A stretch of 40,999 bases of DNA. Source: Bacteroides sp. Its GTDB lineage: Bacteria; Bacteroidota; Bacteroidia; Bacteroidales; Bacteroidaceae. The stretch is from NCBI GenBank assembly GCA_017471925.1, contig JAFURM010000012.1, positions 1 to 40,999 on the forward strand, given 5' to 3'. This document shows positions 5,561 to 21,547 of the stretch, one piece after another. The notes under the pieces were generated by a model. That model had not been told where the DNA came from. It searched no databases and was given only the letters and a program-made list of their open reading frames with translations. The position numbers and the translations under genes are program-made. Position 1 is the first letter of the stretch; every line of letters starts with the position of its first letter.

Positions 5561-6046
5561 TCACCTGCCCTCCTGCAGATGCTCCACCCACAGGCGTGCG
5601 GCCTCTTCCACCATCTTCGCACAAGGACGCTTGGCATAATAGGTCGTCGTGCGGGCCTCGGGCACGGAGGAACCTTCGGGTTTCTTCAGCCCCAGCAGTT
5701 CGGCACACACCAACGAGCCGTTGCGCTGCCTGAAAGCTTCAGCCAGCTGTTGCACCAGGGCATAGTTGGCCGCCTTGGCGGCTGCATCACTCCCCTGCAC
5801 CGCACCGCCTTCCAGTCCGGCCAGCATGAAGAGACCACATGCAGCACCACACGTCAGCCTCATCCGGCCGATGCCGCCACCAAAGGAGGCCGACATACGC
5901 AACGCCTGCTCCTCCGTGAAGCCATACATATCGGCAAATGCCGCCACCACCGACTGCGAACAGTTGAACCCGCTCTTGAAATACTCCACAGCCTTCGCTA
6001 TTCTATCTTCCATCCTATCCTTATCCTCCATATCCATTAGAACCAT
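5561..6046 (-). CDS. C_GCAxxG_C_C family redox-type protein
   Basis: The product (up to about 161 residues) matches the C_GCAxxG_C_C family. Four spaced cysteine motifs are present: FNCSQSV, TCGAACGLFMLAG, VCAELLG and PCAKMVEEAA, with a glycine-rich FGGGIGRM loop before the second. The pattern suggests a metal or redox centre, but no reaction is established. Several Met codons lie at the front (6046, 6037, 6031, 6013); family members usually begin close to MEDRIAKAVEYF, so 6013 may be the true start. It lies directly downstream of the Nramp transporter gene with only a repeat-filled spacer between, so co-transcription is likely. Confidence 0.8.
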   Translation of the reverse strand: MVLMDMEDKDRMEDRIAKAVEYFKSGFNCSQSVVAAFADMYGFTEEQALRMSASFGGGIGRMRLTCGAACGLFMLAGLEGGAVQGSDAAAKAANYALVQQLAEAFRQRNGSLVCAELLGLKKPEGSSVPEARTTTYYAKRPCAKMVEEAARLWVEHLQEGR

Positions 6047-6073
6047 CAATTATCAACTATCAATTATCAACTA
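6044..6073. repeat. Short ATCAATT/ATCAACT tandem repeat
   Basis: Alternating TATCAATTATCAACT units fill the spacer between two minus-strand genes and overlap the Nramp stop codon. A related repeat lies inside the UDP-glucose dehydrogenase gene near 40070-40138. Confidence 0.7.
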
Positions 6074-7333
6074 AAAGACCGTTTCCACCAGCAGCCACAC
6101 GTTCAGTGCCGTCACGACCGCTGCAATGCTATAGAGCACAAAGCTCGTCCAACGGCTGTTGGCATACCTTCCCATCACCCTGCGGGACGACGTAAGCCCT
6201 ACCTGCAGGAACACCGTGAAGGGAAGCTGTATGCTGAGCACCATCTGTGAAACCAGCAAGCCCTTGAAAGGGTCACCGATGAAGCATATCATCAGCAACG
6301 CAATGCCCAGCGAGATAGCCACACCTACCTGTGAGTGACTGTCCTTGCTGTTATAGCTCTCACCGAAGATACCGGCAAAGATGGAGCCGGCCGCCATGCC
6401 GCTGGTGATGGTGGACGAGATGCCGGCCATCAGCAAGGCCAATGCAAACACCACCGCCGCACCGTTGCCCAGCAAGGGCTGAAGCAACGACTCGGCCTGC
6501 TGCAACTCCTCCACATGGACACCCTGACTGAAGAAGGTGGATGCCGCCAGCAGTATCATCGCACTGTTGATGGCCCAACCCACAAGCATGGAGAAAAGCG
6601 TGTCGAACAGTTCATACTTCAACACCTTGCGGATAGAGGCATCATCCTGCTTGTTGTACTCATGACTCTGAATCACCTCCGAGTGCAGGAAGAGGTTGTG
6701 GGGCATCACTACCGCACCCAGCACACTCATCACGATGAGCATGCTGCCCTCGGGCAGAGAGGGCACGACCCACCCCTGAGCCGCCTGAGCCCAGTCAATC
6801 TTCACTAAAAACAGTTCGTAGATAAAGGAAAGCCCGATGACCGAGACGAAGGCGATGATGGCCCGTTCAATCTTCTTATAGGAGTTGGTGAAGAGCATCA
6901 CCAGCACAAAGAGGGTGGTCAGCACAGCCCCCCACAGGATGGGTATCCCCAAAAGCATCTGCAGGGCAATGGCTCCGCCCAATATTTCGGCCAGCGAAGT
7001 GGAGATGGAAGCCAGCACGGCCGTGCCCAATATGGGGCGCGACACCCATCGGGGCGTGTACTTCGTGGCAGCCTCAGACAGACACAGGCCGGTCACGATA
7101 CCCAAATGGGCCACATTATGTTGCAAGACAATCAGCATGATGGTGGAGAGCGTCACCACCCACAGCAAGGCATATCCGAACTCTGAACCTGCCGCGAAAT
7201 TGGATGCCCAGTTGCCGGGGTCAATGAATCCCACCGTGACTAACAGGCCCGGCCCGATATACTTGAAGACATCAAGGCCACCCAGATAGCGCTTGTGGTC
7301 TTTCCTCTGCAGGTCTTTCCAAATATTCTTCAT
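6071..7333 (-). CDS. Nramp-family divalent metal transporter
   Basis: This 420-residue inner-membrane protein belongs to the Nramp/MntH family, which imports Mn2+ or Fe2+ with protons. The first membrane segment has the hallmark DPGN (38-41) and segment 6 has MPH (210-212), so the metal-binding Asp, Asn and Met are retained. About 11 membrane segments are visible. E. coli MntH is of similar length. A promoter with both boxes lies at 7360-7392. The C_GCAxxG gene follows 24 bases downstream. Metal preference cannot be read from the sequence. Confidence 0.93.
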   Translation of the reverse strand: MKNIWKDLQRKDHKRYLGGLDVFKYIGPGLLVTVGFIDPGNWASNFAAGSEFGYALLWVVTLSTIMLIVLQHNVAHLGIVTGLCLSEAATKYTPRWVSRPILGTAVLASISTSLAEILGGAIALQMLLGIPILWGAVLTTLFVLVMLFTNSYKKIERAIIAFVSVIGLSFIYELFLVKIDWAQAAQGWVVPSLPEGSMLIVMSVLGAVVMPHNLFLHSEVIQSHEYNKQDDASIRKVLKYELFDTLFSMLVGWAINSAMILLAASTFFSQGVHVEELQQAESLLQPLLGNGAAVVFALALLMAGISSTITSGMAAGSIFAGIFGESYNSKDSHSQVGVAISLGIALLMICFIGDPFKGLLVSQMVLSIQLPFTVFLQVGLTSSRRVMGRYANSRWTSFVLYSIAAVVTALNVWLLVETVF

Positions 7334-7359
7334 TTCACCTATTCGTTTGTTACAGGGCG

Positions 7360-7392
7360 TAAAAGTACAAAGAAATGTTCACTAACAACAAA
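7360..7392 (-). promoter_or_regulatory. Promoter of the Nramp gene
   Basis: On the minus strand TTTG (7389-7392) is followed after 21 bp by TACTTTTA (7360-7367), about 27 bases before the start codon. Confidence 0.6.
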
Positions 7393-7422
7393 ACGCGGCT
7401 GTTTTTGTTGGGCACAGCCCAT

Positions 7423-7467
7423 AAAAAAAAGGAAGTGGAGATGTCCGATGACACATCCACTCCTTCC
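7423..7467 (-). terminator. Terminator of the pheT-yebC-TSCPD operon
   Basis: An imperfect GGAAGGAGTGGATGT / ACATCTCCACTTCC hairpin is followed on the minus strand by a run of eight T. It lies just after the TSCPD gene stop. Confidence 0.8.
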
Positions 7468-7485
7468 ACAACCGCATAGGAGCGG

Positions 7486-7734
7486 TCAATATCCCATAGC
7501 ATGAAGCGCCTTACAAAGTTGGTCGGGACACGAGGTGGCACGCATGCCACAACGCACTCCCTCCAGGCGGGCAATGACCTCCTGTACCGGCATCCCCGTC
7601 ACCAGGCGGGAAATACCCTGAAGATTACCGTTGCATCCGCCCCAGAAGTGAACATCCTTCACGATGCCCTCTTCCACCTCCAACTCAATGTTGGAACTGC
7701 ATGTGCCCTGTGTACGATAGTTATATGCAGCCAT
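7486..7734 (-). CDS. TSCPD domain protein (TIGR03905 family)
   Basis: The 82-residue protein is a stand-alone TSCPD domain, named for the conserved motif seen here as ATSCPDQL (about 66-73). The motif also occurs at the end of some ribonucleotide reductases, where its cysteines may bind metal. Other conserved parts are GTCSSNIELEVEEG and FWGGCNGN. Function is unknown. Its ATG overlaps the TAA stop of the upstream yebC-like gene by one base (TAATG), so translation is probably coupled. It is the last gene before a strong terminator. Confidence 0.88.
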   Translation of the reverse strand: MAAYNYRTQGTCSSNIELEVEEGIVKDVHFWGGCNGNLQGISRLVTGMPVQEVIARLEGVRCGMRATSCPDQLCKALHAMGY

Positions 7735-8465
7735 TACTCCTCTTCGGGCTTCATGTTGGTATATACGGTCTGCACATCGTCAAACTCTTCCAGACGCTCC
7801 ACCATCTTGTCGATGGTCTCACGCTGTTCGGGAGTGACATCCTTCTGGTCATTGGGGATATAGGTAAACTCACCGCCGACATCCTCAAAGCCCCCCTCTT
7901 CCAGATGCTTCTGGATGGCTGCATAGCTCTTGGGGTCACCATAGATGGTGATTGTGCCCTCTTCTTCATCCTCCTCATAGTCTTCCTCAACGTCGAAGTC
8001 AATCATCTCAAGGATAAACTCTTCCATGTCCATGCCGTCCTTCTTCTTGAACGTAAAGACACACTTATGGTCAAAGAGGAAAGCCAGTGAGCCTGTCGTA
8101 CCGAGATTGCCTCCAAACTTGTTGAATACCGAGCGTACATCGGCCACGGTGCGGGTCGTATTGTCCGTCAGGGTATCTACGAAGACGGCCACACCGTGGG
8201 GGCCATAGCCTTCATAGGTCATGCCCTTGTATTCGCTCTGGTCCTTGCCCATAGCGTTCTTGATGGCACGTTCAATATTGTCCTTCGGCATGTTCTCGCG
8301 CTTACAGGTGGCGATGATGGAGCGGAGGGCAGGATTGGTGTCCGGCTCGGGACCGCCTGCCTTCACGGCAATGGCAATCTGCTTGCCCAGTCGGGTGAAT
8401 GTCTTGGCCATGTGGCCCCATCTTTTCAGCTTAGCTGCTTTTCTATATTCAAATGCTCTTCCCAT
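7734..8465 (-). CDS. YebC/PmpR-family protein
   Basis: The 243-residue protein is a clear YebC/PmpR-family member. The start MGRAFEYRKAAKLKRWGHMAKTF and the segments NPALRSIIATCKRENMPKDNIERAI, YEGYGPHGVAVFVDTLTDN and RSVFNKFGGNLGTTGSLAFLF are diagnostic. Members are DNA-binding regulators in some bacteria, and a related protein has been linked to relief of ribosome stalling. An acidic run (DVEEDYEEDEEEG) is near the middle. It is 50 bases after pheT and overlaps the TSCPD gene by one base, so the three form an operon. Confidence 0.95.
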   Translation of the reverse strand: MGRAFEYRKAAKLKRWGHMAKTFTRLGKQIAIAVKAGGPEPDTNPALRSIIATCKRENMPKDNIERAIKNAMGKDQSEYKGMTYEGYGPHGVAVFVDTLTDNTTRTVADVRSVFNKFGGNLGTTGSLAFLFDHKCVFTFKKKDGMDMEEFILEMIDFDVEEDYEEDEEEGTITIYGDPKSYAAIQKHLEEGGFEDVGGEFTYIPNDQKDVTPEQRETIDKMVERLEEFDDVQTVYTNMKPEEE

Positions 8466-8515
8466 TTTTTATGAATTATGAATGTTATTTTTTGATTGAT
8501 GAATGATTTCACGGC

Positions 8516-10981
8516 TTATCTCAGCTTGGCACCGAGCTTGTTCTCAAGGTTGGCAATCAGCTTGGACATAATCTTGTCTATCTGCTTATCGTTCAGTGTG
8601 GCGTTCTCGTCCTGCAGCGTGAAGCTCACGGCATAGGACTTCTTGCCGGCCTCCAGGTTCTTGCCTTCGTACACATCGAAGAGGGCTACCTCCTTCAGCA
8701 GTTTCTTCTCTGTCTCACGGGCAATCTTCTCGATTTCGGCAAACTGCACCTTCTTGTCTATCAGCAGGGCGAGGTCACGCTTCACGGCAGGAAACTTGGA
8801 GAGTTCGCTGAAGTTCACCTTCACGTTTCTGATGGCACGCTGCAGTTCCTTCCAGTTGATGTCGGCATAGAAGACCTCGTTATCGATGTCGAATGCCTTC
8901 AGTAGCTTGCGCGTCACGATGCCCAAGGTGGCCAGTCGCTTGCCGCCACGTGTCTGCACGGAGAGGGCTGCCGCATAGATGTCATCGGACAGGTTGCCTA
9001 CGACCAGGTCGCGCATGTCCAGTCCCACACGGGCAAAGATGTTTTCCACATAAGCCTTCAATTCGTACACCGTGGCAGCCTCATCGGCATGTGCCCAGGA
9101 ATTGGAGACGCGCTTACCGGTCACCCAAAGGCCCAGGTGGTAATCCTCGGTATAGGCTGCCAAGGGCTTCTCGGCATCCTTTTTCTCGGCATTATAGTAG
9201 TAGCAGTTGCCATACTCGAAGAACTTCAAGTCGGCATTCTTACGGTTGGCGTTGTGGGCAATGCTTTCCAATCCGCCGAAAAGAAGTGTCTGACGCATGG
9301 CGTTCAGGTCAGCACTCAGGGGGTTCATCAGCATCACCAGATTCTTGGCGGGGAAAGTTTCCGGCAAGGCATCATAATAGGCCGCACGAGTCAGGGAGTT
9401 GTTCAATATCTCATTGAAGCCACATCCCACCAACTGCTCGGCAATGAGGTTCTGCAGGCGATTGCTCTTGTCCTGCTCTCCCTTGGTAGTGAGGCTTGAC
9501 TTCAAGGAGGTGGGTATTTCTACCTTATTATATCCATAGATACGCAGGATGTCCTCAATGACATCACAGTCACGCTGCACGTCTACCCGGTAAGGAGGAA
9601 CGTCCAAGGTCAGGCCCTCGGCCGTTTCTGCCACCACCTTCATCTCCAGTGTAGCGAGAATACTCTTGATTGTTTCGGCCGGAATATGCTTGCCGATGAG
9701 ACTGTCCAGCTTGGCATAGGCCAACTCCACACGGAAGTCATGGGCAGGAACCGGACAAACGTCCTTAATTTCCGAAGAGATGGTGCCACCTGCCAGTTCC
9801 TTCACCATCAGGGCTGCCAGTTTCAGGCAATAAAGGGTGTTGTTGGGATCTACGCCACGTTCAAAGCGGAAGGATGCATCGGTGCTGAGCCCATGACGAC
9901 GGGCAGTCTTACGTACCCAGGTGGGATGGAAATAGGCACTTTCCAGGAAGACATCCGTCGTCTTCTCCGTAGAACCGGAATCCAATCCGCCAAAGACACC
10001 GGCAATGCACATCGGCTCCTCTGCATTGCAAATCATGAGATCACGGCCGTCCAACTTGCGCTCCACCTCATCCAAAGTGACAAAAGGCGTTCCTTCGGGC
10101 ATGGTCTTCACCACGACCTTTCCGCCCTTAATCCGACCGGCATCAAAGCAATGTAACGGCTGGCCAAAGGCATGGACAATATAATTGGTGACATCCACCA
10201 CATTATTAATAGGACGTACACCGATGAGACGCAACTTGTTCTGCAACCAGTCGGGACTCTCCTTCACAGTGACACCCTTTACTGAGACACCGGCATAGCG
10301 GGGACAGGCTTCGCTATTCTCCACCTCCACACAAATATCCAGGTCATGATTGTCCACCCTGAAGGCCTCCACAGAAGGACGCTTCAGGGTCGTAGCCACA
10401 CCCTGCTGCACCAGATAGGCATAGAGGTCACGGGCCACTCCATAATGGGAGCAGGCATCCGCCCGATTGGGAGTGATGTCCACTTCCAGCACATAGTCGC
10501 TCTTGATGTTATAGTAATCCTTGGCAAGCGTGCCGGGTACTGCCTCGGAAGGCAACACGATAATACCGGCATGGTCAGTGCCCAAACCGATTTCATCCTC
10601 CGCGCAAATCATGCCGTTGGATTCCACACCGCGCAACTTGGATTTCTTGATGGTGAAACACTCATCGCCGTCATACAACTTGGTGCCCAGCGTAGCCACA
10701 ACCACCTTCTGTCCGGCTGCCACATTGGGAGCGCCACACACTATCTGCACAGGTTCGCCCTGTCCCAGATTGACGGTTGTAACATGCATGTGGTCAGAAT
10801 TGGGATGGGGTTCGCAGGTCAGCACCTCGCCAATCACCAGTCCTTCCAATCCGCCCTTGATGGATTGCACCTCTTCCACACTGCCGGTTTCCAAGCCTAT
10901 GGAAGTCAGCGCTGAAGCCACTTCATCGGGCGTCAAGTCAAAGTCTATATACTCTTTCAGCCAATTATAAGAGATATTCAT
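8516..10981 (-). CDS. pheT: Phenylalanine-tRNA ligase beta subunit
   Basis: PheT forms the alpha2beta2 enzyme that charges tRNA-Phe in the cytoplasm. The 821-residue product has the usual order: an N-terminal start MNISYNWLKEYIDF, a tRNA-binding OB-fold (about 40-150, with HPNSDHMHV), the B3/B4 editing domain, the B5 domain, a catalytic-like core, and the C-terminal FDX-ACB domain (ELSKFPAVKRDLALL onward). An in-frame TTG lies further upstream at 11020, but it sits within the -7 promoter box, so the ATG at 10981 is the start. pheS is not in the window. Confidence 0.97.
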   Translation of the reverse strand: MNISYNWLKEYIDFDLTPDEVASALTSIGLETGSVEEVQSIKGGLEGLVIGEVLTCEPHPNSDHMHVTTVNLGQGEPVQIVCGAPNVAAGQKVVVATLGTKLYDGDECFTIKKSKLRGVESNGMICAEDEIGLGTDHAGIIVLPSEAVPGTLAKDYYNIKSDYVLEVDITPNRADACSHYGVARDLYAYLVQQGVATTLKRPSVEAFRVDNHDLDICVEVENSEACPRYAGVSVKGVTVKESPDWLQNKLRLIGVRPINNVVDVTNYIVHAFGQPLHCFDAGRIKGGKVVVKTMPEGTPFVTLDEVERKLDGRDLMICNAEEPMCIAGVFGGLDSGSTEKTTDVFLESAYFHPTWVRKTARRHGLSTDASFRFERGVDPNNTLYCLKLAALMVKELAGGTISSEIKDVCPVPAHDFRVELAYAKLDSLIGKHIPAETIKSILATLEMKVVAETAEGLTLDVPPYRVDVQRDCDVIEDILRIYGYNKVEIPTSLKSSLTTKGEQDKSNRLQNLIAEQLVGCGFNEILNNSLTRAAYYDALPETFPAKNLVMLMNPLSADLNAMRQTLLFGGLESIAHNANRKNADLKFFEYGNCYYYNAEKKDAEKPLAAYTEDYHLGLWVTGKRVSNSWAHADEAATVYELKAYVENIFARVGLDMRDLVVGNLSDDIYAAALSVQTRGGKRLATLGIVTRKLLKAFDIDNEVFYADINWKELQRAIRNVKVNFSELSKFPAVKRDLALLIDKKVQFAEIEKIARETEKKLLKEVALFDVYEGKNLEAGKKSYAVSFTLQDENATLNDKQIDKIMSKLIANLENKLGAKLR

Positions 10982-13001: not shown

Positions 13002-15074
13002 ATGAAGAAGTTTGAGCTGACATCCAATTACCAGCCTACGGGAGACCAGCCGGAGGCCATCGCACAACTGACCGAAGGGGTGCGCAACGGCCTGCCTGCA
13101 CAGACCTTGCTGGGTGTAACCGGCTCCGGAAAGACATTCACCATAGCCAACGTAATAGCCAATATCGGCAAGCCGACACTGGTACTGAGCCACAACAAGA
13201 CACTGGCCGCACAGCTATACAGCGAATTCAAAGGCTTCTTCCCTCATAATGCCGTAGAGTATTACGTCTCCTATTACGATTACTATCAGCCCGAAGCCTA
13301 TCTGCCGGCATCAGACACCTATATTGAAAAGGATCTGGCCATCAATGATGAGATAGACAAGCTCAGGCTTGCCGCCACTTCATCCCTGCTCTCCGGAAGG
13401 AAAGATGTCATTGTGGTATCTTCCGTCTCCTGCATCTATGGCATGGGCAATCCTTCAGATTTCTACAACAACGTCATTGAAGTAATTCGTGGCAAGTTCT
13501 TCAGTCGGAACGTATTCTTGCGCAACTTGGTGGAAAGTCTCTACGTGCGCAACGACATAGACCTCAATCGAGGCAACTTTCGGGTCAAGGGAGATACGGT
13601 TGACATCTATCTGGCCTATGCCGACAACCTGCTACGTATTGTCTTCTGGGGCGACGAGGTAGACAGTATCGAAGAGGTGGACCCCGTCAGCAACATAGTC
13701 CTCGCCCATTTCGATGAGTATAAGATATATCCTGCCAATCTCTTCATGACAACCAAGGAGACTACACTCAGAGCCATCCACCAGATAGAGGACGATTTAC
13801 AAAAACAGGTACGTTGGTTTGAAGACGAAGGACGTCCACTGGAGGCCAAGCGACTCTATGAAAGGGTCACTTACGACATGGAGATGCTGCGTGAGTTGGG
13901 ACACTGTTCGGGCATAGAGAACTACTCCCGCTACTTCGACGGCCGCGCTCCGGGCACACGTCCATATTGTCTGCTCGACTTCTTCCCCGACGATTTCCTC
14001 ATCGTAATAGACGAGAGCCACGTCAGTGTTCCCCAAATAGGAGCCATGTATGGAAGCGACCGTGCCCGCAAGGTCAACCTGGTGGAATATGGATTCCGTC
14101 TGCCTGCCGCAATGGACAACCGTCCTCTGAAGTTCGATGAATTTGAGGCCATGGCCAAACAAATCATCTTTGTCAGTGCCACTCCGGCCGATTATGAACT
14201 TATCAAATCGGAAGGCATCATCGTCGAACAGGTCATCCGCCCCACCGGACTGCTTGACCCCGTCATTCAAGTACGCCCCAGTCAGAACCAGATTGACGAC
14301 CTGATGGAGGAGATTCAGTTGCGCATCGAGCATGGAGAGCGAACATTGGTCACCACGCTCACCAAACGTATGGCCGAAGAGTTGAGTGAATATCTGGCAG
14401 ACAATGGTGTGAAGTGCAACTATATCCACAGTGGTGTGGAGACTATGGAACGGGTGAAAATCATGAGTGACCTCCGTGAAGGTATCTATGATGTGCTTAT
14501 TGGGGTCAACCTGCTACGTGAAGGCCTTGACCTACCCGAAGTTTCCCTTGTGGCCATCCTTGATGCCGACAAGGAGGGATTCCTGCGTTCCCATCGTGCA
14601 CTGACACAGACAGCCGGACGTGCAGCCCGCAATGTCAACGGTCTCGTCATCATGTATGCCGACCGCATAACCGAAAGCATGCAACGGACTATAGACGAGA
14701 CCAACCGCCGTCGCGAAAAGCAGTTGAAGTACAATGCCGACCACGGTATCACTCCCCGACAAATCCAAAAGGCCAAGAATACCAATGTCTTTGCCTCCTC
14801 CGACAACAGTGTTCCATCATTGTCCAAGCCTTTATCGTCCTCGTCCTCCGCTTCTCCACGTCCCTATACCGAACAGGGAAGCGTCAGAAACGTTGCAGCC
14901 GACCCCATCTTGCAATACATGTCACCGGCACAGCTGGAAAAGAGCATTGCACGCACCAAGAAACTGATGCAAGAGGCCGCCAAACGTCTGGACTTCATCG
15001 AAGCCGCCCAGTATCGCGACGAACTGCTTCGCCTGCAAGACCTGCTGGCCTCCAAGGTCGAATCAAAAGCCTAA
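13002..15074 (+). CDS. uvrB: Excinuclease ABC subunit B
   Basis: UvrB is the helicase-like damage-verification subunit of nucleotide excision repair. The 690-residue product has Walker A GVTGSGKT (38-45), the beta-hairpin region with YYDYYQPEAYLP, the DESH box VIDESHV, helicase motifs VSATPADYE and LREGLDLPEVSLVAILDADKEG, and a C-terminal UVR domain (QLEKSIARTKKLMQEAAKRLDF) that binds UvrC. A serine-rich linker precedes the UVR domain. The frame is open upstream to a TTG at 12948, but MKKFELTSNYQPTGDQP is the conserved start. The 3' end overlaps the convergent transporter gene by 12 bp. Confidence 0.98.
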   Translation: MKKFELTSNYQPTGDQPEAIAQLTEGVRNGLPAQTLLGVTGSGKTFTIANVIANIGKPTLVLSHNKTLAAQLYSEFKGFFPHNAVEYYVSYYDYYQPEAYLPASDTYIEKDLAINDEIDKLRLAATSSLLSGRKDVIVVSSVSCIYGMGNPSDFYNNVIEVIRGKFFSRNVFLRNLVESLYVRNDIDLNRGNFRVKGDTVDIYLAYADNLLRIVFWGDEVDSIEEVDPVSNIVLAHFDEYKIYPANLFMTTKETTLRAIHQIEDDLQKQVRWFEDEGRPLEAKRLYERVTYDMEMLRELGHCSGIENYSRYFDGRAPGTRPYCLLDFFPDDFLIVIDESHVSVPQIGAMYGSDRARKVNLVEYGFRLPAAMDNRPLKFDEFEAMAKQIIFVSATPADYELIKSEGIIVEQVIRPTGLLDPVIQVRPSQNQIDDLMEEIQLRIEHGERTLVTTLTKRMAEELSEYLADNGVKCNYIHSGVETMERVKIMSDLREGIYDVLIGVNLLREGLDLPEVSLVAILDADKEGFLRSHRALTQTAGRAARNVNGLVIMYADRITESMQRTIDETNRRREKQLKYNADHGITPRQIQKAKNTNVFASSDNSVPSLSKPLSSSSSASPRPYTEQGSVRNVAADPILQYMSPAQLEKSIARTKKLMQEAAKRLDFIEAAQYRDELLRLQDLLASKVESKA

Positions 15075-16511
15075 CGGCCACCCACACAGATACCAGATGA
15101 CAAAAAGTATGCTCCAAAGCAGCAACACGCACAAGGAATAGCGCCACAGATGCCTCAACAGGAAAGTGTATGTGGCATTCTTGTCATATTGCCGGATATA
15201 CGCCAAGACAAAAGGAAGATAGGCACCCATAGGTGACAACCCGCAACAACTGCTCTCTCCCAAACGATAGGCGCACTGCACCTCATCCGGAGCAATTCCC
15301 ATCGCTATCATTGGAGGGACAAGCAGTAGCGACAAACTGCCCCACCCCACAATGGAAGAGGGTACCAGGAAATTGAATGCTGCAACCATCAGCAGGAGCA
15401 GCAACAAGATGCCCCACGGTTCAAGCTGTATTCCCATAAGCCACTCTGTACCGATGACAGCCACGCATCTCCCCATCTGGGAATATTCCAGGCACGCATG
15501 CATCTGAGAGGCGAAGAAAAGAATCACCACATAGGAAGTGAACAGCCCCATATAATGTGAAAGTCCCTCTATGACATCCGTTTCCCTGCGATAGCGTCCC
15601 GACACGAAGCCATAGACAAGCCCCATCAATGCAAGCCCCAGGGCATAGAGGAAAACAAGACCTTGCATGAAAGGGGAACCGTCCAACCCGCCATTGGCAT
15701 GACGGAAAATGCCATTTGCCGAAAAGGTGGCCCACAAGACGAGCAATAGATAGACACCACCGGCCACAGCAGAAAACAAGCAAGCCCTGCGCTCCCTGCG
15801 AGACAAAGTCTTCTCTCCCCTCAGCAAGGGATTCTCCGAGGAGACAGCCAATGCAGGCAACAGCTTTTTCTTGGTAATACAGAGAATGACCATGCTTGTC
15901 AACAAGGCTGATGCAGTCATGAAAAAGCGGTTGCACATAGGACCTATCCGGCCATCATCAATAGCTGCCACTTCCAGGCTGTTCTGTGTGGCAGCCACCA
16001 TCTGACTGTCGGAAGAAGAGAGCAGGAAATTCGATCCGTCACTACAGGACATGGAGACATAGGCCACCACAATACCGGCCACAGGCGACAAGCCTGTCAC
16101 ACGGAAAAGCGTAGCGGCAACAGGAAGAAGGATGACACATCCGGCTTCGCCAATCGTATGGGAAATCATGCCCAGAAGAATAACCACAAGCACAGAAACA
16201 GAAGGAGAGGAAGCGTTGCTCTTCAAACGGCTCCAATAGGCTTCCCACATGCCTGAATGCCGGGCGATTCCCCATCCAAGCAGAAACGTAGCCACCACGC
16301 CCAATGGAGTGAACCCGACAAAGTTGGAGACCACATGCCGCAACCACCAACGAATACCCTCGGAAGCCAGCAGGCTCTGCACAACGATTTCCTCACCTGT
16401 GTCAGGAGAGATGACAGCCAGGCCATAGACATTGCATATCCAGGAAAGGAATACCACCAGCAATGTCAGCCAGGCAAACATGGTGGCAGGATGGGGAAAG
16501 TTATTCGTCAT
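15063..16511 (-). CDS. AbgT-family transporter
   Basis: The 482-residue inner-membrane protein matches the AbgT family, known for importing p-aminobenzoyl-glutamate or exporting antimetabolites such as sulfonamides. Family signatures seen are NFVGFTPLGVVATFLLGWGIARHSG, GMISHTIGEAGCVILLPVAA, the NFLVPSSIVGWGSL re-entrant-type motif near 400 and the late GESSCCGLSPMGAYLPFVL. About 12 membrane spans fit. Its ATG lies inside the end of the response-regulator gene (11-bp overlap), so it is the third gene of the sensor operon and is probably tied to the signal being sensed. The substrate is unknown. Confidence 0.88.
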   Translation of the reverse strand: MTNNFPHPATMFAWLTLLVVFLSWICNVYGLAVISPDTGEEIVVQSLLASEGIRWWLRHVVSNFVGFTPLGVVATFLLGWGIARHSGMWEAYWSRLKSNASSPSVSVLVVILLGMISHTIGEAGCVILLPVAATLFRVTGLSPVAGIVVAYVSMSCSDGSNFLLSSSDSQMVAATQNSLEVAAIDDGRIGPMCNRFFMTASALLTSMVILCITKKKLLPALAVSSENPLLRGEKTLSRRERRACLFSAVAGGVYLLLVLWATFSANGIFRHANGGLDGSPFMQGLVFLYALGLALMGLVYGFVSGRYRRETDVIEGLSHYMGLFTSYVVILFFASQMHACLEYSQMGRCVAVIGTEWLMGIQLEPWGILLLLLLMVAAFNFLVPSSIVGWGSLSLLLVPPMIAMGIAPDEVQCAYRLGESSCCGLSPMGAYLPFVLAYIRQYDKNATYTFLLRHLWRYSLCVLLLWSILFVIWYLCGWPLGF

Positions 16512-17229
16512 CAGGTTCCAGATTGTCTATATCCAAAATACGAAGTTCCAAGGCACGTACTACCAGGCGGGTAGCATTTACCCCTACCCGCTCGTCTGCA
16601 CCAAAAAGACGGCTGACCAGTTCGTTCTGTCGTTTTTCCAAAGACTTCACGCCAAACGGCATTCCTCGCAAATTGGCAATCATCTCCTTGGTATAGCCTA
16701 AAGCCAAATGACGCAGGAAACGCTCATCATATTCGTCAATGTCATAGTTGATGGCCGCCTCCACGCGTTTGTTTTCATTCAAGACCGAGTTACGGAAACG
16801 TTCCACAATCTTCTGCAATATAGGATAATTGAACACCAGTTTCTTGCCATCCATCACCGCCTGTACGTCAGTCTTGGTCAGTAGTTCTCCAGTCTTCAGG
16901 ATAATGCCGTCGGCTCCTGCATCCAAGGCATCCACCCACAGTTTCTCGTTCAACACTTCCCCCGTAAATATCAGTACATGCACTCCGGGATAGCGTTTGA
17001 AGATATTCCGGCAAATATCCACTCCGATTGTGGTGGAACCTCCCAATCCCAAGTCCAGCAACACGAGGTCGGGAATGGAAGCCTCTATCAATGGCCAGAA
17101 CTCCTGTTCCGTCATAGCGGCACCTATCACTTCTGCATCGGGAATCTCGTGACGGAAAATCTCTTCCGTACCCTTCAACTCCAGTTTGACATCTTCTACA
17201 ATGATGACTTTGAATTTTCTGTTCTCCAT
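16501..17229 (-). CDS. Response regulator with LuxR-like output domain (DUF5932-type)
   Basis: The 242-residue protein has a receiver domain with the acidic pair Glu12-Asp13, phosphoacceptor Asp59 in LVLLDLGLGG, Thr89 in VLIFTG and Lys112 in IILKTG, so all phosphotransfer residues are present. After a linker (about 125-165) comes a helix-turn-helix of the LuxR/NarL kind, FLRHLALGYTKEMIANLRGMPFGVKSLEKRQNELV. The region resembles the DUF5932 type seen in Bacteroidota. It starts 7 bases after the giant sensor stop and overlaps the AbgT-family gene by 11 bp. It is most likely the direct partner of the sensor; target genes are unknown. Confidence 0.88.
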   Translation of the reverse strand: MENRKFKVIIVEDVKLELKGTEEIFRHEIPDAEVIGAAMTEQEFWPLIEASIPDLVLLDLGLGGSTTIGVDICRNIFKRYPGVHVLIFTGEVLNEKLWVDALDAGADGIILKTGELLTKTDVQAVMDGKKLVFNYPILQKIVERFRNSVLNENKRVEAAINYDIDEYDERFLRHLALGYTKEMIANLRGMPFGVKSLEKRQNELVSRLFGADERVGVNATRLVVRALELRILDIDNLEPDDE

Positions 17230-17236
17230 ATTTCAT

Positions 17237-20200
17237 TCATTTTTTTGGCAATGTAAAATAGACCGTAAATCCTCCCTCTGACGCCACCTCAGCATTGATG
17301 CGGCAACCGCGCCGACCAGCGAACTCATCATGGTCACGGATAATTTGTTTGCATAGCAGGTATTCAATACCTTTCAGCCCACAGCCATACGCTGTTTCCA
17401 ACTGTGTCAATGAGGGATAGAACAATTGGTTCAACTCTTCCTGAGACTTCTGCCGACGGGAATCCGTAAAAAGGAAGCGGACAAAATCACCATCAGATAC
17501 AGCCTTCAGGGAGAGCATACCGGGCAACGGGCAAGCCAAAGCCTCATCTATCAGGTTCTCCAGTAAATATTGCAGCAACACCTTGTCACCTACAACCGTG
17601 AGCATCGGTTCCATTCCCTGCTGCAGAGCCGGCGCAGCCGTTCTGCTCTTCCCGGCCTTACGACAACAGTAACGTTCTGCCCCATCAAGCAGTTCCCTGA
17701 CATCAATGACGGAACGTCGGAAAGTAACCTCCTCCAACTGGCGGGAAGCACAATGGCTCAGTATGCTAAAGATACCTTTATAATACTCTATCAATTCACC
17801 AACGGCCGTCAGTGTCTCCTGCTCCTGTCCGGAGGGCAACTGTTTCCGACAAAGTTTGCAGATAAGCAGCTTGATTCGATTGGGATAATATATCGTTTCA
17901 TGCTTAATGGCTGAAAGGCAGTTGTCCAAGACCAGATTCTGCACATGCAACATGCGGTCTTCACGTGAGGCCCGCCGGGCTTCATCCTGCGCTTCTTCAA
18001 TGTCCTGATAATGCAGGGCCATCTTGAGTACGGCATTGTAAAGCACAATGGCCAGATAGCCGGCAATAAGTTCCAGCAACAGATGGTCAGCCGACTGTTC
18101 GCGTTCCTCCGTACACTCCACACAAATCACACCTATGCAACGGCTGCCATCATTCTCCTCTATCATCAGCGGAAAGGCCCGGTATGTCTGTTCCAACTGC
18201 CGTTCACCACTTTGGTGACAGCGGTCGGCCAGTATTCTCCAGACCTTCATCTCCTCCGCTTTCCGAGACATTCCTTCCACAACGACTTCGGGCACTCCTC
18301 CTCCTTCCGGATAAAGCACTATACCCAGGCTACCTATCCCCATCAATTCATTCACTCCGTCAAACGTAGCTTTCACAATGCGTTGTAAAACATCCCGATA
18401 CCACTCCTCGCCTACCTCCGAATCATGTGGAAAGGCAGCCGCCAGGGAGAGTTGTTTGTTTACCTCCAGCACCTGCTCCAGATTCCAGCGTTCCATCTGC
18501 CTGCGGTAAACATACACCACATAGTAAGCCAATACACCGGCAAAAAGCAAGATGACCGACAACACCATCCCCACCATCTTGTTGGTCGTGGAGATTTCCA
18601 GTTTACGGCAATACTCTTCCAGCGAGTTGTCCTCACCCAGCATTTTGTATAATGTAGTGTAAGCCGTATTGTTATAGGCATACTTTTCCCATTCTTTCAG
18701 GGCCAAGAAGGCCACGGCCGCTTCGTTGCGTATATCCAGGATGACGAAATAGTCCGTTTCCAGCCCTTCATTCCACCAAGAGAACTCCACCGGCTGCTCT
18801 TCATTCCACAAACTCAGGAACTGGTGAGGCAGAGTGGCATAGACCCGATAATGTTCATTCAGGCAATTCATGGCCGAATCTACATATTGCAGTGCCAAAC
18901 GGTAATCACCGTCTATGTTGCAGTAATAAGCCGCATTGGCATAATCGGAAGCCTCATCCAGCAACACGGCATAGGCATCAGGTTCTCCTTCGGGCATCTC
19001 TTCATAGGAGGTCTCGGGAACATCCACACAGGAAAAAAGAGTAAATAAGAGTCCTACGGCAAGCAACGCCTTGCGTACTCCTGCCGGCAAGCGGAAGTAA
19101 AAACGGCTGCCTTGCCCCAATGTGCTCTCCACACTGAACATACAGACCTGAAAAAGCGGATTGCTCTTCCGATACTTTTCAATAATGCCCTTACAGTTCA
19201 TCAAGCCGAAGCCATCTCCCTTGCTCTTTCTCAATTCATCGGGATTCTCCGCATGGTCCATACCGATGGTGCTTGAATCATAGATTTTCTCTCCCATAAG
19301 CCGTGAGACATCCTCAGACGAAAGTCCGCATCCGTTATCTTCCACGGAAATTTCCACATAGTCTGCCTCACATCGGGCGTATACTTTAATTTCTCCTCCA
19401 CGGGGCGTAAACTTACGGGCATTCTCAGCAAGAGTGTTCACCATGAAGAGAGTCAGTGCCTTGTCCGCCTTCACCAATGCCTCTGTAGGGAGAATCAAGA
19501 GATTTTGCCCTTTCATTTCAAAGGCTCTCCCTCCCTTGCGCAACAGTTCAAAGAGTTCATTCAATTCAAAGGTCTCTATATTCAGACTCAACGTACCCTG
19601 CTTCATCTTTATCCAATGGGCCAGGATATCATTATATTCGTTAATCTTCGTGACCAACTCATCTATATAGTGCAACTTGCTGTTTTTGATTTCCTCGTCT
19701 TCCAGGAACTCCTTCCTGGTTAGTTTATGTACCTCGTTGACAATGCGGTCAATATAGGGAAGAATGCCGTCCACTATGGCCAAGCAACTCTTCTTCACCA
19801 TGTTTTGCCGCTTGTTCTCGATGATATGCTGCTCATAGACATAGCGTTGCTTCTCCAACCTACGCTGTTCATTGCCTAAGGAAACACTCCTCATGCCGTT
19901 ATCCAACGCCCAAGTGACATAGGGACTGATTACCCGTGCTATGGCCTGTTCCTCCTTGGTGGTTCTGCCACGAAAGTAAAGACCATCTTCTGCCAGATAC
20001 CAATCCTCACGGCCAAAAAGTTCGTTTACTTCCGGTGCTACATCCTCACGTATGACCTCAAGGATATTCGCTTCATCTTGGGCATCCTGAGGTATGGAAG
20101 CGGTTATCCGGCCGCAGACATTCAGCAACAACTGCAGACGACAAGTGTGCCGGGCATTCCGCTCTTTTGCCCGCTTGCTGAAAAGACTCAGGAAAAGGAT

Positions 20201-21547
20201 GAGTGAGATGATAACTACAGCCAGCACTATCAGTACAACATTCAAGCGGTTGGCCTCTCCTTCCAGAGCTTGATAACGGCTTTCCAATTCCTTGTCCTGA
20301 CGGGTATCTTCCAGGATATCCAGATAGACATTGCGATTATAATCCGAGCAGGGCTTCATACCCAACCCTGAATAGCTGACGCACAGCTGTTCACGAATAC
20401 GCGAAATCCATTCTGGTACAGTTTTCAGTTTCTGCTTCATCCAGAGTTTTTCCACAGAGACTGTATCACGGACATCATAGGGTTTCAACCAATCCAAACT
20501 ATCCGTACAGTTATAATAGTAACGATGATGCTCGTTCACACATTCCAACGCCTGCACCAAGGTATCCAAAGCCTCCTCATATCGGCCATGAGTATTCAGG
20601 TAGCGACCGATAGAGACATAGGCTCCTGCTATTTGATAAAGATCATTGTAGCGACGGAACAGGAGCAAGGCTTGCTGCCCCAAACGCAACGGAAGCAAGG
20701 AGTCTGTCGGGAAGCCCAACTGTTGCAAGGCATGTGGACGACATTGCAGAAAAAAGGCATAGGCATCGGGAGATGCCATAAGATTAGCAAGTCCCTGGAT
20801 GGCATTCCCCTCAAAATAAAGATACCCTTCCTGAGAAGCCCGTTTCCAGGTACGGAACAGTTCGTCAAATTCCGCCATGCGGCGTACATCGGCCGTGGCA
20901 CCTTCACACAATGCCGCCGAACCTTTTATGTAATGATAGTACAGCCATTGACCGGTGTCAGCCGTCCACTCTTCCTCTCCGGCCAAAGAGTCCATGGCTT
21001 CCAAAGCCTGCTGGCGTTGCTGCAGGTAGTAATAATAGACCGCAGAGACAATGTGGAATTCAGAACGGGCATAAGCCAGACGAGAACGTTCATGGGAATC
21101 GCTCTCCTGACCGGTATCCTCGGCAAGACGTTTCATACGTTGCAAGGCACTGTTGCGATAGTCATAGAATTCTTTGTTCAGGGCCGTACGCTGATAGATT
21201 TTCATCAGCCCTACATCAGCTATCAGCATCTCCACCTCGTTCCCGGTCAGGCTATACACCTCTTTATAATAGCGTTCGGCACGCTCGAAATCCATACGCA
21301 TAAAGGTACAAAAGCCCAGACTGTTGCAAGCCTCGGCTTTGCCTCGGCTATAGCTGTCTGCCGCCTGATAGGCCTTCAATGCTGCAGAGGAAGAAAGTTC
21401 CAGGTCCTTATAACGCTGGTTATAGGCTTCCGTATTCAACGAATCGACCAGATGTAATTCCTCCACCGACGACACGCCGACACAGGAAAACCTGGCCATG
21501 CCCAAGCATAGCAGACAACCCAACCATATATAGATATGCCTTTTCAC
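17237..21547 (-). CDS. Giant double-module membrane sensor kinase (DUF5112/DUF5113-like)
   Basis: This 1436-residue protein is two sensor kinases in one frame. Module 1: signal-like segment (5-20), periplasmic tetratricopeptide-like helices (about 30-430), TM (436-457), GAF-like region, helical dimerisation region with Asp593, and an ATPase domain with Asn709, DNGCGL (737-742) and GDGFGL (777-782). It runs straight into a second signal-like TM (826-840) ending LFSC. Module 2: short extracytoplasmic region (841-990), TM (992-1012), GAF-like domain (about 1045-1170), helix with His1216 in IKHETIYYP, and a degenerate ATPase with no DxGxG and Glu1335 in place of the N-box Asn. Similar Bacteroidota proteins carry the names DUF5112 and DUF5113. 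It heads an operon with a response regulator and an AbgT-family transporter. The start is a GTG giving the signal sequence. Confidence 0.85.
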   Translation of the reverse strand: MKRHIYIWLGCLLCLGMARFSCVGVSSVEELHLVDSLNTEAYNQRYKDLELSSSAALKAYQAADSYSRGKAEACNSLGFCTFMRMDFERAERYYKEVYSLTGNEVEMLIADVGLMKIYQRTALNKEFYDYRNSALQRMKRLAEDTGQESDSHERSRLAYARSEFHIVSAVYYYYLQQRQQALEAMDSLAGEEEWTADTGQWLYYHYIKGSAALCEGATADVRRMAEFDELFRTWKRASQEGYLYFEGNAIQGLANLMASPDAYAFFLQCRPHALQQLGFPTDSLLPLRLGQQALLLFRRYNDLYQIAGAYVSIGRYLNTHGRYEEALDTLVQALECVNEHHRYYYNCTDSLDWLKPYDVRDTVSVEKLWMKQKLKTVPEWISRIREQLCVSYSGLGMKPCSDYNRNVYLDILEDTRQDKELESRYQALEGEANRLNVVLIVLAVVIISLILFLSLFSKRAKERNARHTCRLQLLLNVCGRITASIPQDAQDEANILEVIREDVAPEVNELFGREDWYLAEDGLYFRGRTTKEEQAIARVISPYVTWALDNGMRSVSLGNEQRRLEKQRYVYEQHIIENKRQNMVKKSCLAIVDGILPYIDRIVNEVHKLTRKEFLEDEEIKNSKLHYIDELVTKINEYNDILAHWIKMKQGTLSLNIETFELNELFELLRKGGRAFEMKGQNLLILPTEALVKADKALTLFMVNTLAENARKFTPRGGEIKVYARCEADYVEISVEDNGCGLSSEDVSRLMGEKIYDSSTIGMDHAENPDELRKSKGDGFGLMNCKGIIEKYRKSNPLFQVCMFSVESTLGQGSRFYFRLPAGVRKALLAVGLLFTLFSCVDVPETSYEEMPEGEPDAYAVLLDEASDYANAAYYCNIDGDYRLALQYVDSAMNCLNEHYRVYATLPHQFLSLWNEEQPVEFSWWNEGLETDYFVILDIRNEAAVAFLALKEWEKYAYNNTAYTTLYKMLGEDNSLEEYCRKLEISTTNKMVGMVLSVILLFAGVLAYYVVYVYRRQMERWNLEQVLEVNKQLSLAAAFPHDSEVGEEWYRDVLQRIVKATFDGVNELMGIGSLGIVLYPEGGGVPEVVVEGMSRKAEEMKVWRILADRCHQSGERQLEQTYRAFPLMIEENDGSRCIGVICVECTEEREQSADHLLLELIAGYLAIVLYNAVLKMALHYQDIEEAQDEARRASREDRMLHVQNLVLDNCLSAIKHETIYYPNRIKLLICKLCRKQLPSGQEQETLTAVGELIEYYKGIFSILSHCASRQLEEVTFRRSVIDVRELLDGAERYCCRKAGKSRTAAPALQQGMEPMLTVVGDKVLLQYLLENLIDEALACPLPGMLSLKAVSDGDFVRFLFTDSRRQKSQEELNQLFYPSLTQLETAYGCGLKGIEYLLCKQIIRDHDEFAGRRGCRINAEVASEGGFTVYFTLPKK

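Follow-up and report, generated by a model that had tools for sequence, protein, structure and literature searches.

A double sensor kinase of the Bacteroidaceae, a probable split histidine kinase derived from a duplicated kinase by complementary losses

How can a sensor histidine kinase work if the residues required for phosphorylation are divided between two copies, neither of which has the full set? The question is raised by a gene in a stretch of 40,999 nucleotides from Bacteroides sp. (assembly GCA_017471925.1, contig JAFURM010000012.1, positions 1 to 40,999; the whole stretch is called the window below). The protein, termed here the double kinase, consists of two homologous sensor modules in one frame. 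Each has helices resembling those of dimerization and histidine phosphotransfer (DHp) domains, followed by a catalytic, ATP-binding (CA) domain; the domains are numbered DHp1 and CA1 in module 1, and DHp2 and CA2 in module 2. An earlier note on this DNA had proposed that module 1 combines a complete ATPase with an Asp in place of the phospho-acceptor His, that module 2 has the His and a defective ATPase, and that the former may phosphorylate the latter. The residues on which the proposal was built, Asp593, Asn709, the motifs DNGCGL (737-742) and GDGFGL (777-782), His1216 within KHETIYYP, and Glu1335, are all found at these numbers.

The protein was compared with its homologs from the same family. 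The gene was collected from 255 loci, and the removal of 30 repeats (identical in the last 500 amino acids (aa), or nested) left 225 non-redundant homologs, the window included. A smaller set of 155 homologs is a subset of these, apart from further repeats. Because the loci were picked mainly among strong matches, the set does not sample every variant; the majority of the 40 extra regions were drawn from divergent genera, picked to test the claim of complementary losses. One homolog, L082, has a frame that ends at 903 aa and was excluded from the module 2 counts, for which n is 224.

The ATP site of module 1 is intact throughout. Asn709, Asp737, Gly739, Gly741, Gly779 and Gly781 are all kept in 225/225 homologs, and the ATPase is complete, as had been claimed. 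A canonical His followed by Glu or Asp was found in module 1 of none of the 225. Position 593 is occupied by Asn (86), Thr (43), Tyr (24), Ala (22), Met (8), Ser (8), Asp (7), Gly (7), Leu (5), His (5), Glu (3), Arg (3), and by Cys, Gln, Ile and Lys in one homolog each; next to the five His residues are Asn, Ser, Ser, Ala and Gly. Asp593 is thus not important as an Asp, because the site is free to vary. Module 2 presents the opposite picture. Lys1215, His1216, Glu1217 and Pro1222 are each kept in 224/224, the N-box Asn and the DxGxG motif of the G1 box are each present in 0/224, and intact ATP boxes were not encountered in this module. A run of GxG followed by Leu, Ile, Met, Phe or Val occurs in 5/224, the window's protein being one of them. 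The loss of the G1 box is conserved; the Asp at 593 is one of many substitutes. The phospho-acceptor His with its acidic neighbor is not in the module that carries the intact ATPase; it is module 2 that carries His-Glu. By sequence, ATPase and phospho-acceptor are on different modules in 224/224 homologs, and the complementary losses, as read from these residues, hold across the family.

The distribution of conserved positions is similarly uneven. His1216 is the sole invariant His within residues 455-1436; the next most frequent His columns are 1406 (210/224), 1201 (193/224) and 574 (159/225). Conservation in at least 95% of the homologs is reached at 46 of 147 positions in CA1 compared to 5 of 136 positions in CA2; for DHp2 and DHp1 the counts are 17 of 80 and 11 of 76. 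Such inequality, CA1 above CA2 and DHp2 above DHp1, would be expected if the ATPase of module 1 phosphorylates the His of module 2. The invariance of the CA1 site and of His1216 would likewise be expected if CA1 were the only ATPase and His1216 the only acceptor. In the short forms of the protein (988 to about 1250 aa), CA2 is more worn and the equivalent of His1216 is retained. The two shortest, L160 and L165 (988 aa), have nearly lost the second periplasmic domain and have a much worn CA2; their His box is kept as KHETMYYP.

Does Asp593 occupy the position of the lost His? In an alignment of the cytoplasmic profiles of the two modules, Asp593 lies opposite His1216 (hhalign, 98.8%, E 6e-17). 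When only the DHp stretch is aligned, the pairing is unchanged but not significant (1.9%, E 0.026). When module 1 is aligned with the single complete kinase described below, the His of that kinase falls opposite Asp593, the residues 'PYI' being shared (99.7%, E 1.3e-26). A structure alignment places residue 154 of the model, which is Asp593 and the first residue aligned, opposite residue 260 of HK853 (4jav_A); the superposition is loose (root-mean-square deviation (rmsd) 10.9 over 205 residues) and can be taken as supportive only. The alignment with 2c2a has the same offset, 153 to 259, at the ends of the aligned ranges and with an rmsd above 10. His260 is presumably the phospho-acceptor of HK853, which is consistent with the titles of structure entries that name 'H260A'. 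The pairing of Asp593 with His1216, made in the earlier note on shared AI...RI residues, is thus supported by two profile alignments and a loose structure alignment.

Apparent single complete relatives of the double kinase survive in another family of the same order. The regulator domain DUF5932 was found outside the Bacteroidaceae in two of 295 genomes searched in the order, both belonging to genus g130 of family f101, and in these genomes a single complete kinase of 710 aa stands beside a homologous regulator. This kinase is present in 2/291 genomes of the order and in 8/40 genomes of the genus (loci L290, L291 and L322-L329), and the regulator adjoins it in 8/8 carrier genomes. The motifs His-Asp, NNA, DTGCGI and GFGLM are present in 8/8, the ATPase scores 71.9 bits in Pfam, and a lipoprotein-type N terminus is seen in 7/8 (L329 is unclear). 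The C terminus, HDDETxRGC, resembles the HDEFAGRRGC of module 2. The accompanying regulator is about 30% identical to that of the double kinase, with DUF5932 at 25.7 bits and the receiver below the cut-off. Like the double kinase, this outgroup kinase has a lipoprotein-type N terminus, a transmembrane (TM) segment, a DHp-CA core and a homologous regulator next to it, and it matches module 1 over its full length. Unlike the double kinase, it has one copy of each part, with the His and an intact ATPase together. Since this complete relative has its His on the position of Asp593, the ancestor was probably a single complete kinase, and the double kinase looks like a duplicated kinase with reciprocal losses. 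A transfer of the kinase into g130 is possible.

The best explanation of these observations, considered likely as a whole, combines tandem duplication, complementary loss, phosphotransfer from CA1 to His1216, and possible cleavage of the chain. One complete lipoprotein sensor kinase would have been duplicated in tandem, duplication being the direction of change that we infer. Module 1 would have given up its phospho-acceptor His while its ATP-binding catalytic domain persisted; in module 2 the His would have stayed and ATP binding would have been lost. CA1 would then bind ATP and phosphorylate His1216 across a mixed DHp bundle of presumed pairing geometry, and the phosphate would pass from His1216 to Asp59 of the neighboring regulator. 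This path, from the ATPase of module 1 through the His of module 2 to the regulator, is quite probable. Since module 1 has no canonical His in any homolog and module 2 no intact G1 box, phosphorylation of the module 2 His by the module 1 ATPase is the best reading, so that the earlier note's central proposal agrees with the residue counts; coevolution analysis, described below, gave no support to the pairing of DHp1 with DHp2. The internal signal peptide would export sensor 2. It may be cut, by signal peptidase II in this protein and by signal peptidase I in other species, and two half-kinases, both membrane-bound, would then be made in a fixed 1:1 ratio. Both lipoprotein-type sensors would face the periplasm, sensor 1 gating the use of ATP and sensor 2 the accessibility of the His. 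An AND-type switch, as had been suggested, is possible, and the role of either sensor may just as well be purely inhibitory. At +4 from His1216 stands Tyr1220, compared to the Thr or Asn of the usual phosphatase motif, which is written HE/DxxN/T in PMC3591291, and unusual phosphatase behavior may follow from this. Several structure alignments span module 1 into module 2 (e.g. 8a7f_A, model residues 127..994, 232 residues, rmsd 6.2), and these hint at a mixed DHp/CA arrangement without proving it.

The junction between the modules (residues 819-840, RLPAGVRKALLAVGLLFTLFSC) has a positive stretch, then a short hydrophobic core, and then a lipobox. A hydrophobic segment (mean hydropathy of at least 1.6 over 15 residues) is present at the junction in 221/225 homologs compared to 83/225 for shuffles, and the net charge is higher before the core than after it in 220/221. 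The median core length is 15, compared to 20 in the first TM helix (TM1) and 17 in the N-terminal signal peptides. The lipobox occurs at 110/225 junctions; shuffled c-regions have 40 ± 5, TM1 has 2/225 and TM3 has 8/223. A weight matrix made from the N-terminal lipoboxes recognizes 116/225 junctions, against 5 for TM1, 7 for TM3 and 7.4% for shuffles. Among the 115 junctions without a lipobox, 41 have a small-x-[AGS]-Gln site (shuffles 15.9 ± 3.5; TM1 3/225; TM3 0/223), and among the lipobox junctions this site is at the level of the shuffles (8/110 compared to 8.0). A Gln after the cut marks substrates of signal peptidase I in Bacteroidetes, being found in a mean of 71% of the predicted substrates according to PMC5837995; 41/115 is below this proportion, so that not every Gln-type site need be used. 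By the patterns applied, the remaining junctions comprise 62 with Ala only and 12 without a site. The lipobox and Gln-type classes switch at least 15 times on one FastTree tree, made without shuffles and with two siteless junctions relabeled as lipobox by eye. This repeated exchange of site types argues that the chain is cut, since a mere anchor would not need it. The junction thus reads as an internal signal peptide, with a positive n-region, a short core and a putative cleavage site, and because it is conserved, the mature form may be two chains. The chances that a signal peptidase cuts the chain here are about even. The earlier description of two fused kinases is right insofar as homologous modules share one frame, and has to be qualified because this signal peptide may split the chain.

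A number of results weigh against this explanation. Coevolution was analyzed by mean-field direct coupling analysis and corrected mutual information on 218 rows (those with a regulator found by script) and 526 columns, with an effective number of sequences of 156. At this limited depth, coupling between DHp1 and DHp2 is not enriched by either method (0.47x and 0.71x of expectation), nor is coupling between DHp2 and the receiver (0.62x and 0.36x), and that between DHp1 and the receiver is no lower (0.61x and 0.70x). Hairpin lengths in sister pairs show no covariation (6 same and 10 opposite changes among 112 pairs). The AF2 model of the whole chain has a pLDDT of 84 and a predicted TM-score (pTM) of 0.61. 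His574 is frequent in module 1, if not invariant. As for the outgroup, DUF5112 and DUF5113 were not found in its kinase by Pfam, which gives TPR matches below the cut-off only, and the alignment of module 2 with this kinase is restricted to the ATPase part (98.6%, E 7.8e-16). A joint tree was built from module 1, module 2, the outgroup kinase and further kinases. The first three groups each cohere, but their branching order is not resolved; the approximately unbiased test gives p 0.264 for module 1 with the outgroup, and several extracted kinase rows are very long branches. At the junction, 12/225 homologs are siteless, of which 2 are clipped at the edge of the segment analyzed and 2 are lipobox-like by eye. 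The loose small-x-Ala pattern for peptidase I is unspecific, since it exceeds shuffles in the controls also (TM1 61/225 compared to 36.3; TM3 44/108 compared to 29.9). For this reason it was dropped as evidence despite its count at the junction (75/109 compared to 54.6), and the 62 Ala-only junctions carry little weight. The covariation of hairpin lengths over all homologs was likewise tried and rejected as a sign of DHp1-DHp2 pairing: the rank correlation is 0.54, and other pairs of segments are equally correlated.

What else might such a protein do? The ATPase of module 1 could phosphorylate another residue, for instance its own His574 or His607, with module 2 serving as a regulatory pseudokinase. 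The occurrence of His574 in 159 of 225 homologs speaks for this; however, neither His is invariant (His607 is found in 74/225), a merely regulatory module 2 does not explain His1216-Glu1217 in 224/224, and in the unduplicated relative it is the Asp593/His1216 position that carries the His, so that this alternative is quite improbable. Somewhat less improbable, though still unlikely, is that module 2 is a phosphotransferase or phosphatase fed by another kinase, with module 1 as an ATP-sensing regulator of the DivL type. Proteins such as Spo0B and ChpT consist of a DHp domain with a His and a degenerate ATPase, a make-up that module 2 shares, and DivL (4q20_B) is third among the 50 structural matches listed for CA1. 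Yet CA1 keeps all its motifs in 225/225, the chain has no receiver domain, according to Pfam, that could hand phosphate to module 2, and given descent from a complete kinase the split reading is the simpler of the two.

The fate of the chain is a separate matter, because the phosphoryl path may be the same whether or not it is cut. If it stays whole, the junction would be a TM helix, a remnant of the second copy's signal peptide, and the protein a double sensor in one unbroken chain. The hydrophobic segment at nearly all junctions fits this, as does the fact that no unfused pair of modules was found among the 255 loci. The core is nevertheless shorter than TM1 and similar to that of the N-terminal signal peptides, the lipobox and Gln-type sites are far above the controls, and the exchanges between site classes would be needless for a mere anchor; an intact chain is a serious possibility, rated somewhat below even. 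The corresponding full picture of a polyprotein kinase, in which signal peptidase yields two anchored, separately sensing half-kinases that form an obligate heterodimer after duplication and reciprocal loss, is tentative, falling just short of an even chance. That both modules are decaying as a pseudogene-like remnant is scarcely credible. CA2 is indeed strongly decayed in several genera, but open frames of 988-1544 aa in 224/225 homologs and the invariant catalytic residues bring this possibility close to refutation.

The layout of the protein and its neighbors is given in the table. Of the Pfam families named in the earlier note, DUF5112 is matched once, DUF5113 twice, HATPase_c in both modules and HisKA in neither. 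HATPase_c scores 58.8 bits over residues 702-822 in module 1 and is borderline in module 2, with 25.4, 26.6 or 27.9 bits depending on the length of the fragment (cut-off 26.4). HisKA-family models have no match at E <=1 in the whole protein or its parts. The two copies of DUF5113 match each other as profiles (99.3%, E 1.8e-20). The start position of the gene is occupied by Met or Val in close homologs. Module 2 is unlikely to be translated from a start of its own at the junction, since start-capable codons have no fixed position there: the window has GTA at residue 824, and ATG or GTG occurs within 816-831 in 158/225.

Table. Coordinates of the double kinase gene, its parts and the two genes that follow it (window positions; residues are those of the 1436 aa protein)
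Feature	Positions	Strand	Basis and remarks
Double sensor kinase gene	17237..21547	-	Uninterrupted frame, 1436 aa, GTG start
N-terminal lipoprotein-type signal peptide, residues 1-22, Cys22	21482..21547	-	Cys22 in 207/225 homologs
Extracytoplasmic sensor 1, DUF5112, residues 34-298	20654..21448	-	Pfam PF17139, E 5.8e-93
DUF5113 copy 1 and transmembrane helix, residues 300-459	20171..20650	-	Pfam PF17140, E 5e-102 (whole protein); hydrophobic helix in 225/225
Module 1 DHp-like helices, residues 575-660, without phospho-acceptor His	19568..19825	-	hhalign; secondary structure of model
Asp593 codon, putative site of the lost His	19769..19771	-	Profile alignments, homolog counts
Intact ATPase (CA1), residues 676-822	19082..19522	-	
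Putative lipobox-bearing internal signal peptide, residues 819-840; cleavage predicted N-terminal to Cys840	19028..19093	-	
Extracytoplasmic sensor 2, DUF5113 copy 2 and transmembrane helix, residues 859-1013	18509..18973	-	Pfam PF17140, E 2.2e-52
Module 2 GAF-like alpha/beta domain, residues 1040-1180	18008..18430	-	By eye, from secondary structure only; no Pfam match
Module 2 DHp, residues 1185-1285	17693..17995	-	hhalign; model
His1216 codon, predicted phospho-acceptor	17900..17902	-	224/224 homologs
Degenerate ATPase (CA2), residues 1300-1436	17240..17650	-	
Cognate response regulator, receiver and DUF5932 (possibly NarL-like)	16501..17229	-	Pfam
AbgT-family transporter	15063..16511	-	Pfam PF03806, E 1.4e-99; start overlaps end of regulator

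The response regulator follows the kinase directly in 218/225 loci by script, and in L082 it stands after the second piece of the kinase. It is adjacent in 219/222 loci that have room for it; L107, L108 and L199 end at a contig edge. In L092, L098 and L173 the regulator is elsewhere in the genome (DUF5932 was found in 3/3), and in the genome of the window DUF5932 occurs once. Asp13 and Asp59 of the receiver are present in 217/219 alignment rows, the other two being gapped; these rows stand for 218 regulators, that of the window being included twice. Conservation is far higher in the regulator than in the kinase, the mean column identity being 88% (51 rows) compared to 58% (64 rows). The regulator model matches receivers closely, most of the structure matches covering residues 4-152 only, and NarL-type regulators such as RcsB and LiaR, along with DesR, are matched loosely over 173-199 residues (rmsd 7.8-9.7); the regulator is likely to bind DNA. 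In 59/70 loci with room, the gene that comes directly after that of the regulator, in many cases with an overlap, is that of the AbgT-family transporter. This arrangement suggests a kinase-regulator-transporter operon, and because of it the transporter is a likely target or partner of the system.

The double kinase is widespread in the family. Matches were found in 264/301 Bacteroidaceae genomes; once 30 weak ones (E of 4.3e-11 or higher) are set aside, about 234 genomes in 25/30 genera remain. The named matches include Bacteroides (Bacteroides fragilis and other gut species), Phocaeicola and Mediterranea. In an order-wide search of 393 genomes, matches above 100 bits were confined to the same family among the matches listed, and the best of those listed from outside it (E 3.6e-24) covers the ATPase region. 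The gene is a single frame in 254/255 loci, the exception being L082 (Bacteroides neonati, 5917-10287), in which an in-frame stop after 903 aa lies inside module 2; a sequencing error or a broken gene is possible. Despite this wide occurrence, no mention of DUF5112 or DUF5113 was found in the literature searched.

If the proposed explanation is true, the double kinase would offer a clear natural example of duplication followed by degeneration and complementation within a single frame, and unduplicated relatives still exist for comparison. Neither half-kinase should work without the other, and the protein would illustrate a way of making two extracytoplasmic sensors act jointly. It would also suggest that a defined heterodimer can be produced by signal peptidase from a single gene in bacteria. 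Among the papers listed on split, tandem, pseudo- and duplicated kinases, on kinase polyproteins, on Bacteroides lipoprotein kinases and on polyproteins with internal signal peptides, no account of this family was found; within that literature the double kinase may be the first kinase made as a polyprotein. Cleavage of a membrane polyprotein at an internal signal peptide is known in bacteria from the Bradyrhizobium fbcH product, cytochrome b/c1, which, unlike the double kinase, is not a signaling protein.

Kinases with divided functions are known from other bacteria. In CheA3-CheA4 of Rhodobacter sphaeroides, one protein is without the phospho-acceptor domain and the other without the catalytic domain, and phospho-His is made only jointly (PMC3591291). 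The likeness lies in the placement of the ATP-using and the His-bearing functions on different partners; however, CheA3 and CheA4 are CheA-type proteins, separate from each other, that belong to a cytoplasmic cluster and lack whole domains, whereas the modules of the double kinase are homologous membrane sensors that come from one frame and keep worn copies of the unused domains. In Hik36-Hik43 of Synechocystis, a kinase is split between two proteins that share one regulator (PMC7656254), but these are encoded by two distant CheA-type genes, one with HPt domains. Both systems show that the principle of a split kinase works, though their make is different. DivL, reported to be without kinase activity (PMC4211667), and the ChrS/HrrS pair, in which the pseudokinase's own His is dispensable (PMC9491836), are similar in that kinase-like proteins minus a catalytic feature act through partners. 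The double kinase differs from them in that its losses are reciprocal and both of its parts come from one frame, and it is best seen, from the residues kept and lost, as a split histidine kinase that arose through duplication followed by complementary losses.

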